Assembly (NCBI RefSeq): GCF_025118155.1
Contig: NW_026251389.1
Span: 868,001-932,000, forward strand
Direction of reading: 5' to 3'
From: Cokeromyces recurvatus
Lineage: Eukaryota > Mucoromycota > Mucoromycetes > Mucorales > Mucoraceae
DNA length: 64,000 nucleotides
Below are positions 21,879 through 46,401 of the stretch, one piece after another; positions within the stretch are counted from its first letter, which is position 1; every line of letters begins with the position of its first letter. A model generated the notes under the pieces. It ran no database searches. It was not told the DNA's origin and saw only the letters and a program-made list of their open reading frames with translations. Position numbers and translations under genes: made by a program.

Positions 21879-24750
21879 ATGACATCCAACATGCCTTCTG
21901 CTGCTAATCCTCTTCTTAATGCCCATATTACGGCTCCTGCTGCTAATGCTACACCTATTAGTCGTTCCCCTCGTTCCCCTAACGCTCCTACTCGTCCTGC
22001 TGCTGCTTTGGAAGATCCTAAGAATGTAACTACTGCTGCTTTTGTTTTAAAAGATGGAACCAGTTTCCAGGGTATTTCATTTGGTTCTGAAACAAAGAGT
22101 ATTTCCGGTGAATGTGTCTTCCAAACTGGTAAGCATTTTTTTTTATTTTTTTTTTAAAAAAAAAGAAAGCTGCGGTTTCATAAAGAGGGAGGAGGGGATA
22201 GGAGAAATGAAAGGCTATTTGTTATGTGTATGCATATACGTATGTCAATATGCATACATGTGTACAAAGAGTTGTGTGAAAGAGAATACAAATATTTATA
22301 AATGTGTAATCATTTATTTTGTGACACTAACAAAAAAAAAATTACCTTATACAGGTATGGTCGGTTATCCTGAATCTTTGACCGATCCTTCTTACCGAGG
22401 CCAAATATTAGTAATTACTTTCCCTTTGGTTGGTAATTATGGTGTACCCTCTCGTACTGAAATGGACGAGTTATTAAAGGATATACCTAAACGATTCGAA
22501 TCTAACCAAATTCATATTGCTGGTTTGATCGTGGGTAGTTACTCATATGATTATTCTCATTATCTTGCTGAATCTTCCTTGTCTACCTGGTTAAAAGAGA
22601 ATAATGTCCCTGCTCTCTATGGTATTGATACTCGTGCCATGACCAAGAAGATTAGAGAAGAAGGTGTTACTTTAGCCAAGATTTTGTTTCCTAAAAAGCC
22701 TTCTAGTGCTATTGAAAGCGCTGCTTCAGCTCTCGGTCTTTCTAGTTCCACCGAAGAACCTTTGAAAGAACGTTGGATGAAAGATTATGAAAATGTCGAC
22801 TGGGTAGATCCTAATGAACGTAATTTGGTTGCTGAAGTCTCCATTAAGGAGCCTAAGGTATATTCTCCTGATCCAGCTAATGCGATCAAGACCCCCTCTG
22901 GTCGTAACTTACGTGTGATCGCTGTTGATATCGGTATGAAGTACAATCAAATTCGTTGCTTTGTTTATCGTGGTGTTGAACTTAAGGTAGTCCCCTGGGA
23001 TTATGATTTCAATGCTGAACCTGAGGACTCCTTTGACGGTCTCTTCCTTTCTAACGGTCCTGGTGATCCTACTACCATTGACCTCACCATTCATCGTGTT
23101 CGTGAATACATCAAAGATATCAAGAAACCTATCTTTGGTATTTGTTTAGGTCATCAAGTCTTGGCCCTTGCCGCTGGTGCTAAAACGATGAAGATGAAAT
23201 ATGGTAATCGTGGTCATAATATTCCTTGTACAAATATGATCTCGGGTCGTTGTTATATTACTTCTCAAAATCATGGTTATGCTGTTGATGCTTCTACATT
23301 ACCCAAAAACTACATGGAACTCTTTGTGAATGCTAACGATGGTTCAAATGAAGGTTTGATGCACACATCTTTACCCATCTTCTCTGTTCAATTCCATCCT
23401 GAATCCACACCCGGTCCTCGTGATACTGAATTCCTCTTTGATGTCTTTATTAATAATATTAAGGATTGCCTCGAAAAGAAGGCATTAGTACCTGTTCAGA
23501 TGCCCGGTGGTCTTAAGGCGGATAACATCAAGAAGAATCCTCGTGTTCACGTCAATAAAGTCCTTGTCTTGGGTTCAGGTGGTCTTTCGATTGGTCAAGC
23601 TGGTGAATTTGATTACTCTGGTTCTCAAGCCATTAAGGCTCTTAAAGAAGAAGGTATCTATACTGTCTTGATCAATCCCAATATTGCTACTATCCAAACC
23701 TCAAAGGGTCTTGCTGATAAAGTTTATTTCTTACCTGTTACACCTGATTTTGTTCGTAAGGTAATCCAATATGAGAAACCAGATGGTATCTATGTTACCT
23801 TTGGTGGTCAAACGGCTCTCAGTGTCGGTATTGCTCTTAAAGATGAGTTTGAATCCCTTGGCGTAAAGGTCCTTGGTACTCAGATTGATACCATCATCAC
23901 TACAGAAGATCGTGATTTATTTGCTCAAGCCCTTTATGAGATTAATGAAAAGTGTGCTAAATCATCCTCTGCTGTAACCGTCGAGGAAGCCCTTGAGGCT
24001 GCAAAGGAAATCGGATACCCTGTTATCTGTCGTGCTGCTTATGCCCTTGGTGGTCTCGGTTCTGGTTTTGCTGATAATGAGCAAGAATTGATTGCCCTTT
24101 GTAACAAGGCCTTTGCTACCTCTCCTCAAGTCTTGATTGAAAAGTCGATGAAGGGTTGGAAGGAAATTGAATACGAGGTCGTTCGTGACTGTCAAGACAA
24201 TTGTATCACTGTCTGTAATATGGAAAATTTTGATCCTCTTGGTATTCATACGGGTGATTCCATTGTGGTTGCACCTTCACAAACACTATCTGATGAAGAC
24301 TATAACATGCTTCGTACCACTGCTGTCAATGTTATTCGTCATTTAGGTGTCGTTGGTGAATGTAATATTCAATATGCCTTGAATCCCTTCTCAAAGGAAT
24401 ATTGCATTATTGAAGTCAACGCTCGTCTCTCTCGTTCCTCTGCTTTAGCCTCTAAAGCTACAGGTTATCCATTGGCTTTTGTAGCTGCTAAACTTGGTTT
24501 AGGTATTCCCTTGAATGAAGTATCTAACAGTGTCACTAAGGTCACTTGTGCTTGCTTTGAACCTTCACTTGATTACTGTGTTGTTAAGATTCCTCGTTGG
24601 GATCTCAAGAAGTTCAATCGTGTCAGTACTGCTCTTTCTTCTTCTATGAAGTCTGTCGGTGAAGTCATGGCTATCGGTCGTACCTTTGAAGAAACTATCC
24701 AAAAGGCTATTCGTGCCATTGATTATAACCTTGTTGGTTTCAATTCTGTA

Positions 24751-24797
<47 letters not shown>

Positions 24798-27700
24798 ATT
24801 ATTAGTATAACATAAATTTATGTTTATTGATTTTTTTTTTTTTTTTTTTTGCATTATAGTCCAATACTATTAAGGATGAAGATATTGAGTATGAACTTAC
24901 ACATCCTTCTGATCAACGTTTGTTTGCAATTGCTAATGCTATGGAAAAGGGATATACAGTTGATCATATTTGGGAATTGACAAAGATTGATAAATGGTTC
25001 TTGAACAAATTAATGCGTATTCATAAATTGGGAGAGCGTCTTACAGGATTTACTAAGGCTAATCTTCCTGGTAATTTGATTCGTTCGGCTAAACAGTTAG
25101 GTTTCTCTGATCGTCAAATTGCTAACAAGATCAACAGCAATGAGCTAGCTGTTCGTCGTCTTCGTCAAGAATATGGTATTACACCTTTTGTTAAACAAAT
25201 TGATACCGTTGCTGCTGAATTCCCTGCCTTCACTAATTATCTTTACATGACCTATAATGCTGTTGAACATGACATTGAATTCAATGATAATGGTATTATG
25301 GTTTTGGGTTCAGGTGTCTATCGTATTGGTTCATCAGTTGAGTTTGATTGGTGTGCCGTCCGTTCAATTCGTACTTTACGTGAAAAGGGTATTAAGACAG
25401 TCATGGTCAATTACAACCCTGAAACAGTATCCACCGATTACGATGAAGCTGATCGTTTGTATTTTGAAAATATCAACATTGAACGTGTATTAGATATTTA
25501 TGAAATTGAAAAGTCATCTGGTGTCATGATGTCCATGGGTGGTCAAACCCCCAACAACATTGCCTTACCTCTTTATCGTCAAAATGTGAAAGTCCTTGGT
25601 ACTTCACCAGAAATGATTGATAACGCTGAAAATCGTTACAAGTTCTCTCGTATGTGTGATAATATTGGTGTTGATCAACCTCTTTGGAAGGAATTGACAA
25701 GTTATGAGGAAGCTGAAGTCTTCTGTGCCAAGGTTGGTTATCCTGTCCTTGTCAGACCTTCTTATGTTCTCTCTGGTGCTGCTATGAACGTTGTCTTCTC
25801 TAAGGATGATCTTGCTTCATATCTTAAGGAAGCCGCTGCTGTTTCTCGCGATTATCCCGTTGTCATTTCTAAATACATCGAGGACGCTAAAGAAATCGAT
25901 ATGGATGCTGTCGCTCTTGATGGTAAACTTATTATGCATGTCATTTCTGAACATGTTGAAAATGCTGGTGTTCACTCAGGTGATGCCACTCTTGTCTTAC
26001 CTCCTCAAGATTTAGCCCCTGAGACGATCAAGAAGATCGAAGAGGCAACTGCAAAGATTGGTCGCGCCTTGAATATCACAGGTCCCTTCAATATTCAATT
26101 CATTGCAAAGAATAATGAAATTAAGGTGATTGAATGTAACGTACGTGCTGCTCGTTCTTCACCTTTTGTTTCAAAGGTGACTGGTGTTGACTTGATTGAG
26201 ATGGCCACCTTGGCTATGTTGGGCTTGCCTGTCACTCCTTACCCTAAGGTTGATATTCCTAAAGATTATGTTGGTATTAAGGTCCCTCAATTCTCCTTCA
26301 GTCGTTTATCTGGTGCTGATCCTGTCTTAGGTGTCGAAATGGCCTCTACTGGTGAAGTTGCCTGTTTCGGTAAAGACAAATACCAAGCTTATCTTAAGGC
26401 ACTCTTGGCTACTGGCTTGACCTTACCCAAGAAAAATATCTTGCTTTCTATTGGCTCTTATAAGGAGAAGATTGAATTGTTGCCCTCTGTTAAGAAATTA
26501 CATGAATTGGGTTATAATTTATTTGCCACCACGGGTACCGCTGATTTTATCTCTGAACATGGCATCCCTGTTAAACATTTGGATACATTAGATGCTGATA
26601 CAGACGATAAGCTCAAGGCTGAATACTCTTTACAACAACACTTATCCAACAACTTGATTGACATGTACATCAACTTGCCCTCTCGTAATCGATTCCGTCG
26701 TCCTGCTTCTTATATGTCCAAGGGTTATCGTTCACGTCGTATGGCTGTGGATTATTCTATTCCTCTCTTGACTAATGTCAAATGTGCCAAATTATTTGTT
26801 GAAGCCCTTGCTCGCCATAAGAACTTTGACATCTTGAACATTGATTGCAAGAGTAGCCATACACAAGCTCAGTTACCTGGTCTTTTCAACATCAATGCCT
26901 ATCTGGAGTCCAACGATGAATTTGCTGCTGTCTCTAAGGCTTCTCTCTCTGCTGGTTTCACTACCATTGCTACCTCTGTCAAGAGTGTGACAGATAATAT
27001 TCAACTCAATGATTTAAGCGAGAGGGCACTCAAGACAAACTATACCGATTATTTATTGAATATTACAGCTACTTCTGAAAATGCCGCCCATATTGGTGAT
27101 TACGCCTCTGATGCAGCTGCTGTCTATATCCATTCCGATGTGATCGGTAGCAACGTCTCTGTTCTTGATTCAGCCTTTTCATCATGGCCCGATTCTCAAT
27201 TAATTATGACTGATGCTAAGGGTACCAACTTGGCTTCCATCTTGCTCTTAGCCTCTCTTCATAATCGCGTTATCCATGTCACCAATATCATTAGCAAAGA
27301 TGATTTGGCTCTCATCAAGATGAGTAAAGAAAAGGGATTAGCCGTTACCTGTGATGTTGCTATTTATTCTCTCTTCTTTACATCTGAAGAATTCAATCAT
27401 ACTCAACTTTTACCCACTAAACAAGATCAAGAAATTCTTTGGAAGGATTTGGACGTCATCGATTGTTTCACTATCGGTACTGTTCCTCGTCAATTGGCCA
27501 AGGAGTTGGGACATGAGGTAGATGCTACAGCTGGTATTCATGAGGCTTTACCCTTATTATTGGGTGCTGTTGCTGCTAAACGTTTAACTGTGAAGGACTT
27601 GGTTGAACGTCTTTATGAACGCCCTCGTGCCATCTTTGGTTTGACTCATCCATCTGATGCCTCCGTTGAGGTTGTGATCGATCGTCAAATCAAATGGTCT

Positions 27701-29038
27701 GGACAATGGTCTCCTCTTCTCGGTCGTACTGTTCATGGCTCTGTCGAACGTGTCACGATGAACGATGTCACATTATTTATGGATGGCTCCTTTACAGATA
27801 AGTCTATGTTTGGACGCAATGTGTCCTTACAAGCTCAAGCCATTATGGAACCCATAAAGAAGAAGAAGAAGACGAAGACAGAAACTCCTGCTAATCATCA
27901 AGCTGCTGAAGTTGCCTCAGCCACTTCTGTCGCTACCACCACCGCCACTACAAAGACAACAATCGAACATCCTGCGATTGTCAACAAGGAGAAGGCGCCT
28001 CATGCTGCTGGTTCTATTCGTTTAGCCGGTGTCGCTGGTCAACAATTGGTATCACTCCAAGCACCTCAATATGAGATCTCTGCCTCCCTTGCACGCGTTG
28101 TAAGTCGCTCCCCCTTCTATCGTAAACATATCTTAAGATCTGCTCAATTCGACCGTGACGATCTTCATCTTTTATTCGGTGTTGCACATGAAATGCGTAA
28201 CTTGGTTGAACTCTATGGATCTATTAATTTATTGCAAGGACGTGTGATGAGCACGATGTTCTTTGAACCTTCTACACGTACTTCATCTTCATTTGAAGCT
28301 GCCATGTATCGATTGGGTGGTCAAGTTGTGTCTGTCAGTGCTACTACCTCCTCTGTTCAAAAGGGTGAATCCTTGGCAGATACAGTTCGTACCCTTGGTT
28401 GCTATGCAGATGTCATCATTCTTCGCCATCCTCAACCTGGTAGTGCTCAAATTGCTGCTAAATATTCCAAGGTGCCCGTTATCAATGCTGGTGATGGTAT
28501 TGGAGAACACCCTACACAAGCTTTCTTGGATACATTTACGATCCGTGAGGAATTAGGTACTGTAAATGGACTCACGATTACTCTTGTTGGTGACTTGAAG
28601 AATGGCCGTACAGTCCATTCACTTGTCAAGATCTTGACTTACTATCAAGTCACTATCAACTACGTCTGTCCTGAGTCACTAGCCATGCCAAAGGAAGTCA
28701 TGGATGAAGTTGCAGCTGCTGGTATTCAACAAAATGTCTATCGTACCTTGGATGAGGTCATTGGTACTACTGATGTACTCTATATGACTCGTGTTCAAAA
28801 GGAAAGATTTGAAACTGAAGAAGAATACTTGCGTGTAAAGGATAGTTTCATTTTAAACAATGATGTCTTGAGTAAGGCCAAGTCACAAATGATTGTCATG
28901 CATCCTTTGCCACGTGTAAATGAAATTGAACCTGAAGTTGACTTTGATCAAAGAGCTGCCTACTTTAGACAAATGCGTTATGGTCTTTATGTTAGAATGG
29001 CTTTATTGGCACTTGTAATGGGAACTCTTCGTGGTTAA
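21879..29038 (+). CDS. URA2: Multifunctional CPSase-ATCase (URA2/CAD type)
   Basis: Exons 21879..22128, 22355..24747 and 24860..29038 give 2273 residues, close to yeast Ura2. The enzyme makes carbamoyl phosphate from glutamine, then carbamoyl aspartate, the first steps of UMP synthesis in the cytosol. In order: a glutaminase domain with F-G-I-C-L-G-H-Q (Cys347) and F-H-P-E; two CPSase ATP-grasp halves ([12 protein letters not shown] and [13 protein letters not shown]); an MGS-like allosteric domain with F-R-R-P-A-S (Ser near 1498), matching the PKA-type site of CAD; and a dihydroorotase-like domain from about 1510. That domain lacks the zinc-binding H-x-H (it reads [11 protein letters not shown]) and is presumably inactive, as in yeast. 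A Lys/Thr-rich linker leads to ATCase from about 1950 with [13 protein letters not shown] and H-P-L-P-R-V-N-E-I. Codon choice is biased to T/C-ending codons, suggesting high expression. Confidence 0.97.
24753..24791. repeat. T39 homopolymer at a splice donor
   Basis: It begins directly after the GTAAG donor of intron 2 of the URA2-type gene. The same intron has a second T run just before its acceptor. Confidence 0.85.
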
Positions 29039-43801: not shown

Positions 43802-44649
43802 ATGATAGATAAAATAACTAGTAATGGGAACACTAGTAGCTATGAGTCCCAAAAAATAGAAGAATTTGAAAAAGCACCTTCTTATTTTTCAAATAGTCAT
43901 GTTGACCAAGAGGATCTTGAAAATAATAATCATATTCAAGATGGCACTGTACGTGGATTAAGTGCTAGACATATTCAAATGATTTCCCTTGGTGGTGCTA
44001 TTGGGTAACTATGGATACAATTTGAGTAAATAAAGTTATATTCTTAATCGTTGTATTATAGTACTGGTCTTTTCTTGAGTTCTGGTAGTAATGTAGCTGA
44101 GGTAATAATATACAAACAGATATTCACATACAGCACTTACTAATATATATATTTATATATGTATAGGCTGGTCCTGCTGGTGCTCTTATTGCCTATTGCG
44201 TTGGTACATAAATTTAATTCTTTTATAGACAATATATATATGTTATTCTAAACTTATTTTATAGTCGGTTTCATGGTTTACTGTATTATGACATGTCTTG
44301 GTGAAATGGCTACTTTTATGCCTGGTATATAAATGAATACAATTTTTTTTTTAACTTTAAACACTTTAATTAACTTATTCTTAGTTTCTGGTTCATTTAA
44401 CCATTACGCTACTCGCTTCGTTGAGCCTTCATTGGGATTTGCTTTGGGTTGGAATTATTGGTAAAAATAATAATAATATAAAATTCCTTTAAATAAAACA
44501 ATAATAATGACTAATAACGTTGTTGTTTTTTTCTAGGTTTTCTGTAAGTTCTTTTAACTTGTAGAATTATTTTTTTTTGTTTCTCATCTGTTTTATTTAA
44601 CAACGTTTATTTATTTATTTTTTATTTTAGTGGGTAAAGTAACAAGATC

Positions 44650-44691
<42 letters not shown>

Positions 44692-46401
44692 AATCTAATT
44701 TCTTTTATAAAATAGGCAGTTACAATCGCTACTGAACTTGCTGCTGCGGCAACTATTATCAAGTTTTGGAAAGAAGTGCTACCAGATGCTGCATGGTCTA
44801 CAATCTTTTTAGTTTTAACAGTTGCTGTCAACTTTTTAGGTGTTCGAATTTATGGTGAACTTGAATATTGGTTTGCTATGATCAAGATTGTGATCGTTAT
44901 TGTCTTTATTATCATTGGTATTTTAGTTGCAACAGGAGCTGTTGGTGGTCATACGATTGGCTTTGAGTAATATAATCATAATTTTTTTTTCTTTCTTTCT
45001 CACTTTATTTACTAATATAATCTATATGACTTAGATATTGGAAAAATCCTGGTGCATTTAATAATGGTGTCGTTGGTACCATTAGTGTCCTCTTAGCAGC
45101 TGGTTTCTCTTTCCAGGGTACAGAGATTGGTAAGTTTATTAAGCATGATGATTAAAGTATTACAGTTTATATAAAAATAACGTCCCTTTTTTTTTCCTTT
45201 CTTTCTTTTAGTCGGTATCACAGCAGGTGAAGCCAAAAATCCCACGAAAACTGTACCTCGAGCTATTCGTAATACCTTCTGGCGTATTATTATCTTTTAT
45301 GTCTGCACTATATTCTTAATTGGTTTATGTATCCCCCATAATAATGAGAATTTATTAAATGCAGATGGTGGACCAGGTACTGCTTCTTTTACTTTGGTCT
45401 TTCAATTAGCTGGCATTGAAGCTGGTTCTCATGTCATTAATGCTATTGTTCTTACAAGGTAAATAGATGTTTGTTTTTGTTTTATCTGTTGAAAAAAAAG
45501 GGGGAGAATGAAACTAACCTTCCCCTCCTTAACTCAAAGTGTATTATCTGCTTTGAATTCTTCCATGTATACTACATCTCGTACACTTATGGGTCTTGCT
45601 CGTGATAATAATGCACCTGCTTTCCTTGGCCGTGTCAATAAATATGGTGCACCTTTCTGGTAAATTATAAAAATAAAATAATTGAAATACATATTAATCA
45701 TCCTTATTTAATATAGGGCTGTTTGCTTTTCTTCGTTAGTTGGATTTGCTTGTGTGTTTGCTTCTATCTACAGGTAATAAAAAAAAAAAGCTCTTACATA
45801 ATATAATTTGCTATATACAACGCTCACAACTTTAATCCCTCTTTTTTTCTTCTTCTTCTTCTTCTTCTTTCTTTCTTTCTTTATAGTGCTGAACAAGCAT
45901 TTGTTTGGTTCTTAAGTATTACTGCTGTTAGTGGTTTTATCAGCTGGGCTGGTATCGCTGCTGTTCATATTCGTTTCCGTCGTGCATATATTCGTCAAGG
46001 ACGTAGTATTGAAGACTTACCTTATAAAGCCTTTGCTTATCCCTTTTCTGGTCTCTTTGCTACCATTCTCTGTATTCTTATTATCCTCGGTCAGGGTTAT
46101 AGTGCTTTTTCACCTCAGTTTGATTCAATATCATTTGTCACAAGTTATATCGGTATTGTTCCCTTTTTCTTATGTTATATTATACACAAATTAGTTACCA
46201 GAAAGAAATTGATACCTCTAGAAGAAGTTGGTAAGTTTATACAAATCCTTCATATGCTCTTTTGTATACAAATTCACTTTATTATTATTATTATTATTAG
46301 ATTTTGAGACAGGTCGCGTTACTCGATATGATATCGAAAAGGATAACGAGCAAGATAAAACAATTCCTCGTTGGAAACGTATTATTGCCTGGATTATTTA
46401 A
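43802..46401 (+). CDS. Basic amino-acid permease (Lyp1/Can1-like, APC superfamily)
   Basis: Fourteen exons, 43802..44004, 44062..44101, 44167..44203, 44265..44324, 44385..44460, 44538..44544, 44631..44633, 44716..44966, 45035..45129, 45212..45458, 45540..45659, 45717..45773, 45887..46230 and 46301..46401, give 546 residues. An acidic cytosolic N-terminus leads to [17 protein letters not shown], the family signature. About twelve membrane segments follow, including [33 protein letters not shown] and [10 protein letters not shown]. The tail (D-Y-D-I-E-K type, ending [10 protein letters not shown]) matches fungal permeases. It imports amino acids across the plasma membrane with protons; substrate basic or neutral is not certain. 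Exons 6 and 7 are 7 and 3 bases and encode Phe-Ser and one conserved Trp. Confidence 0.92.

Follow-up and report, generated by a model that had tools for sequence, protein, structure and literature searches.

Ultra-small exons are already known. In Fusarium, a 1-nt exon of CYP621A was confirmed by RNA reads, as described in the available part of that report (PMC12940212). As far as that part goes, it resembles the exon considered here in that both are ultra-small, belong to fungal genes and fall within a conserved motif, with an overlong intron, an intronless relative, an AG-x-GT arrangement and an annotation that missed the exon. It differs in that it is 1 nt long, its omission breaks the frame and it is found in Fusarium orthologues. 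The exon of Cokeromyces recurvatus, by comparison, is 3 nt long and frame-neutral, adjoins a 7-nt exon and occurs in two paralogues. Arabidopsis APC11 contains a 1-nt exon that was shown to be spliced and tested with constructs; according to the accessible portion of the source (PMC4674806) it is likewise below the size of any exonic signal and constitutive, and it differs in its length and in coming from a plant. The 3-bp exon of Drosophila homothorax likewise comprises 3 nt and one codon, although in the excerpt available these 3 bp are the first bases of a 48-bp exon, are subject to alternative splicing and lie between two domains (PMC7392893). In plants, gene models have likewise missed conserved small exons, among them an adjacent pair of 5 nt and 12 nt in rice, but those misannotated microexons were, by the text available, established from RNA-seq (PMC8831610). 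Fungal stwintrons, as portrayed in partly available sources, also consist of two closely linked introns that are removed stepwise, but there one intron splits the splice signal of the other, whereas the two introns considered here keep separate signals, with a codon between them. Introns 6 and 7 of the present gene each carry their own GT, AG and branch-like motif and do not form a stwintron, nor is there a recursive (zero-nt) splice site, since TGG separates the acceptor AG from the donor GT. Exons as small as 6 bp in basidiomycete P450 genes (PMC1184071) and a regulated 20-nt microexon in Trichoderma (PMC11121469) are described in the accessible parts of these papers, and in the corresponding part of PMC4462047 the mention of microexons concerns an aligner setting only. 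Among the matches listed from open-licence main texts, none dealt with an exon of 3 nt in Mucorales. What is added here is the pair of 7-nt and 3-nt exons, its occurrence in two paralogues and the scale on which a Trp is absent from the Mucorales records examined.

The window, which is the whole stretch of 64,000 nucleotides analysed, lies in contig C23 of the genome (28.05 Mb, 64 contigs) of C. recurvatus, a species of the order Mucorales. At 43802..46401 on its plus strand it contains a lysine-permease-like amino-acid permease gene, running from ATG to TAA in 14 exons, the 3-nt exon being one of them. The NCBI model of the product, P0001 (545 aa), matches the Pfam family AA_permease (PF00324) with 465.4 bits over residues 57-505, the profile covering most of the protein, and by its sequence the permease is a LysP-like member of this family that may carry lysine or similar amino acids. 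Gene structure was derived with a threading script, which returns the GT-AG paths with introns of 35-400 nt that yield a stated protein. P0001 as deposited can be threaded by one path only, with 12 introns, and P0001 plus one Trp also by one path only, with 13 introns; the sole difference between the two is that an intron of 172 nt is resolved into 87 + 3 + 82 nt. P0001 is therefore identical to the threaded protein minus this Trp, and what the 7-nt exon encodes is present in it.

In the Trp-containing structure, a 76-nt exon (44385..44460, plus strand as for all features of the gene) ends with the codons for GWNY and the first two bases, TG, of a Trp codon. Intron 5 (44461..44536, 76 nt, GTAAAA..TTCTAG, with a branch-like CTAAT) is followed by the 7-nt exon GTTTTCT (44537..44543), which provides the last base of that codon, Phe and Ser. 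Intron 6 (44544..44630, 87 nt, GTAAGT..TTTTAG, with a branch-like TTAAC 30 nt before its end) leads to the 3-nt exon TGG (44631..44633), which encodes Trp and is missing from the NCBI model, and intron 7 (44634..44715, 82 nt, GTAAAG..AAATAG, with a branch-like CTAAT 17 nt before its end) to a 251-nt exon (44716..44966) that starts GCA GTT ACA (AVTIATEL...). Both small exons can be read directly in the window, as ttctag/GTTTTCT/gtaagt and attttag/TGG/gtaaag, and both are microexons in size, i.e. internal, of about 30 nt or less and with spliceosomal introns on both sides, as judged from the GT-AG borders and the unique threading. The original prediction was right about the two consecutive microexons and their splice motifs, but placed the start of the 7-nt exon one base late; of the W-F-S and Trp that it assigned to these exons in the WFSWA block, the TGG Trp, Phe and Ser are supplied, whereas of the first Trp codon the 7-nt exon gives only the final base. 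The stop that it expected immediately upon reading through TGG is indeed a TAA in frame, but two codons intervene (TGG GTA AAG TAA). Its argument that the exon can only be these 3 bases if Trp is kept stands: there is one GT-AG path, and within the 172-nt stretch TGG is the sole open in-frame insert that lies between an AG and a GT and leaves an intron of at least 40 nt on each side. Other sources of the Trp were considered by enumerating the in-frame open inserts of the long intron, which left TGG alone.

Given the sequence and its unique threading, a paralogue with the same exons, a conserved Trp and the absence of this Trp from many public models, a probability of about 0.9 is assigned to the reading that TGG is a real and normally included 3-nt exon, which restores the Trp of the WFSWA block, is recognised by intron definition and was missed by annotation. 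It would presumably be included in the mRNA of C. recurvatus, and used constitutively rather than in a regulated manner. NCBI's model, which omits the Trp yet contains the residues of the 7-nt exon, would be correct if 44544-44715 were a single intron, if Mucorales permeases truly lacked the Trp and if AG-TGG-GT were a fossil or a product of chance. We regard this as very unlikely, as the intron would then measure 172 nt (166 nt in the nearest paralogue), against 57-113 nt for the 24 introns threaded in the two genes (13 in the window gene, 11 in the paralogue).

Intron positions in permease paralogues, whose comparison had been proposed along with the original prediction, were followed in the C. 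recurvatus loci on contigs C64, C56, C45, C40, C25 and C1, the more distant PF00324 loci being set aside. The nearest paralogue, on C64 (63% identity over residues 193-479), also threads uniquely and has the same two microexons at the matching place, 7 nt (GCTTTCT) and 3 nt (TGG), with its 166-nt long intron becoming 94 + 3 + 69 nt once the TGG exon is included. The microexon is thus conserved as an exon at the DNA level within the same genome. In all five other paralogues, the Trp lies uninterrupted inside one open exon (C56 and C45, YNWAV; C40, ACWSI; C25, ANWAV; C1, VNWSV). Introns 5, 6 and 7 of the window gene and of C64 are no more alike than shuffled sequences (z of -0.8, -1.5 and 0.5), and since AG-TGG-GTAA has nevertheless been kept at the matching place, selection on it is suggested by the sequences. 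TGG with good splice sites at the same position, amid introns that cannot be aligned, also speaks against a single annotated intron. In C64, an alternative insert of 21 nt reading WVSKFIL is possible, but it exceeds the normal spacing. The C64 paralogue has in addition exons of 11 nt (2672-2662) and 19 nt (2165-2147) on the minus strand of L036 (G000:C64), both absent from the window gene, and its public model, P0104, comprises 373 aa only and begins downstream of the microexon region.

Chance was assessed by shuffling each long intron 20,000 times with its dinucleotides preserved. An exact 'W' exon arose in 0.125% of the shuffles for the window and 0.405% for C64, and one with YAG and GTAN in 0.005% and 0.03%, respectively. 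Looser outcomes were more frequent, namely an open in-frame insert with any Trp (3.0% and 9.1%) and any 3-nt insert (8.5% and 9.1%). Across the genome, TTTAGTGGGTAA occurs at 12 places on both strands, compared with 7 for the reversed pattern, and two of the 12 are the homologous position of the window and C64 permeases; by arithmetic, the other ten correspond to about 3 in 100,000 per stretch of such size on one strand. A genome-wide class of 3-nt exons was also considered and rejected, as TTTAGNNNGTAAGT showed no enrichment (18 places versus 38 for the reversed pattern), and nothing usable was found in the open frames around these 18 places of the genome. Being rarer than its reversed pattern, TTTAGNNNGTAAGT gives the impression that the genome avoids acceptor and donor signals at a distance of 3 nt.

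Three protein searches (best 120 of 3744, of 549 and of 2652 matches) gave together 225 different proteins, all of which were aligned to the query. Measured from the Tyr of WNY to the Glu of ATEL, spacing among these 225 was normal in 141, one residue short in 52 and otherwise altered in 7, with no anchor in 25; Trp was present in all 141 of the normally spaced homologues. Within the best 120 of 3744 matches, 90 records carry names that, except for the query species, we take to be those of Mucorales. Only 9 of these contain the Trp, while 48 are exactly one residue short with intact flanks, 11 are disrupted and 22 lack the anchor; the remaining 30 (other fungi or unassigned) include 27 with Trp and 3 with no anchor. 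Forty-eight records lacking exactly this residue could be taken to support the annotated model, but the pattern rather indicates a systematic annotation error. If so, alignments and structures built from Trp-less records begin with a wrong helix, and an overlong intron together with a one-residue gap at a conserved position would be a usable sign of other hidden 3-nt exons. Mucor mucedo P0005, 81% identical, contains the Trp, and Mucor flavus P0064 reads WLSWVRAVTI, which to judge from the codons may reflect run-through of TGG into the donor GTA AGR.

Distribution of the Trp-less label was followed on a 64-row tree (48 short and 16 with Trp), in which the block was masked and disrupted rows, anchorless rows and most distant rows were left out. 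The label requires 11 changes, of which well-supported branches force 9, and is somewhat clustered, as 7 to 9 of 500 shuffles gave values as low. Phycomyces blakesleeanus (with Trp) and P. nitens (without) are sister rows, and the three Umbelopsis rows and three others farther away contain the Trp. Despite the clustering, these changes and the differing sister rows agree better with errors in the gene models, or with introns lost independently, than with a single inherited loss, and such disagreement between close relatives speaks against permeases that truly lack the Trp.

A transcript-like record points in the same direction. P0038 is an uninterrupted frame of 556 aa with NYWLSWAVT, found in four contigs, none longer than 2738 bases. 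P0097, from a contig of 5479 bases, matches the final 383 residues of P0038 exactly, as a genomic copy split farther upstream by an intron should. Judging from contig sizes and identity, the two probably come from one organism, and P0038 looks like spliced cDNA of an organism other than C. recurvatus; its Trp again disagrees with the annotated model. The argument from two microexons and one Trp is thus supported by the C64 structure, the five uninterrupted paralogues, the 141 normally spaced homologues and this cDNA-like record. An exon-end and donor scan for other Mucorales DNA returned at least 118 stretches in the prokaryote collection (80 among the matches listed) and 53 in the viral one. 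The motif check on 191 occurrences gave 23 matches, 20 of which were overlapping loci of the C. recurvatus genome; none of those outside it had both microexon motifs, and three outside stretches (L074, L097, L226) had AGTGGGT only.

Within the protein, the Trp of the WFSWA block is predicted to lie in the middle of a transmembrane helix, the third of the long helices in the LysP-like fold. The closest solved chain in a search with P0005, the lysine-specific permease 9eyd, carries the Trp and aligns without gaps through WNYWYNWAVTIA. In an AlphaFold2 model of M. mucedo P0005, W147 is in mid-helix (133-162) with a mean pLDDT of 95 over residues 141-150. Trp-less P0001 was also folded by AlphaFold2, retaining one helix (128-156) with a mean of 86 over residues 141-150 and an overall mean pLDDT of 81.6, which is compatible with the annotated model; these are different proteins, modelled from alignments whose other 37 rows were chosen for carrying Trp, and their comparison does not settle the effect of Trp removal. 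Removal of the residue would rotate the two halves of the helix relative to each other, so the Trp-less permease is probably impaired.

Skipping of TGG keeps the frame and deletes only the Trp, as had been predicted and as both the sequence and the threading of P0001 without Trp confirm. Both forms might therefore be made, the 3-nt exon being regulated, and 3-nt exons with alternative splicing are known in animals, according to the available excerpt (PMC7392893). This appears a slim prospect: splice sites are good on either side of TGG, nothing positive speaks for it, and a skipped form would probably be poorly active, because the Trp is found in every normally spaced homologue. It is similarly doubtful that the exon serves as a frame-neutral one-residue switch, conserved across Mucorales, by which cells tune the share of permease with the helix Trp.

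How an included exon of 3 nt is defined without room for exonic signals was the question raised originally, and it is largely dissolved because the introns are short (57-113 nt) and have their own splice sites, so that recognition across the intron would suffice. Splice sites were scored by leave-one-out over the 24 introns, the matching site of the paralogue staying in the training set, which flatters both genes. Scored in this way, the sites around TGG match the remaining ones in quality: the acceptor before TGG reaches 11.8 bits in the window gene, the top of the 24, and the donor after it 8.9; in C64 the acceptor reaches 7.2 bits and the donor 11.5, again the top of the 24. The donor behind the 7-nt exon is weak in its exonic bases (TCT) but reads GTAAGT within the intron in both genes. 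Branch-like motifs precede both acceptors around TGG in the window gene and in C64, which is weak support, as 8 of the 24 introns lack the simple motif (2 of the 13 in the window gene and 6 of the 11 in C64). Recognition across the intron is the mode assumed for short introns, and it has been proposed that microexons depend on it, exon definition being sterically infeasible, according to the part of the source available (PMC8378409). For introns of 76, 87 and 82 nt, nothing beyond intron definition seems to be required.

In the proposed mechanism, the introns of 87 and 82 nt would each be recognised across the intron, by U1 at the donor, and by the branch point and U2AF at the acceptor, and TGG would be what remains between two well-defined introns, making exon definition unnecessary. 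Only 3 nt separate the intron 6 acceptor from the intron 7 donor, and from the footprints of U1 and U2AF both complexes probably cannot sit there together, so introns 6 and 7 should leave one after another. The order of removal would not alter U1 pairing, since the three bases TGG just fill donor positions -3 to -1. Accordingly interpreted, the locus would offer a clean natural case of a spliceosome handling two introns with splice sites 3 nt apart in a short-intron organism.

Within intron 7, positions 44653-44684 are 32 consecutive T, and such stretches can be hard to sequence. An assembly or sequencing error near this run, concealing a different gene structure, is nevertheless extremely improbable, as the exon also occurs at C64, a separate locus where the T run is shorter, and the rest of the window gene threads without a frame error.

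Elsewhere in the window, two long open frames occupy 22051-29038, and by eye their translation resembles what we take to be a multifunctional carbamoyl-phosphate synthase / aspartate transcarbamylase. The pattern YAGTGGGTAAR has two matches in the window, against a shuffle mean of 0.07, and the second TAGTGGGTAAA, at 27409-27419 on the minus strand, is antisense to a long open frame and probably due to chance.
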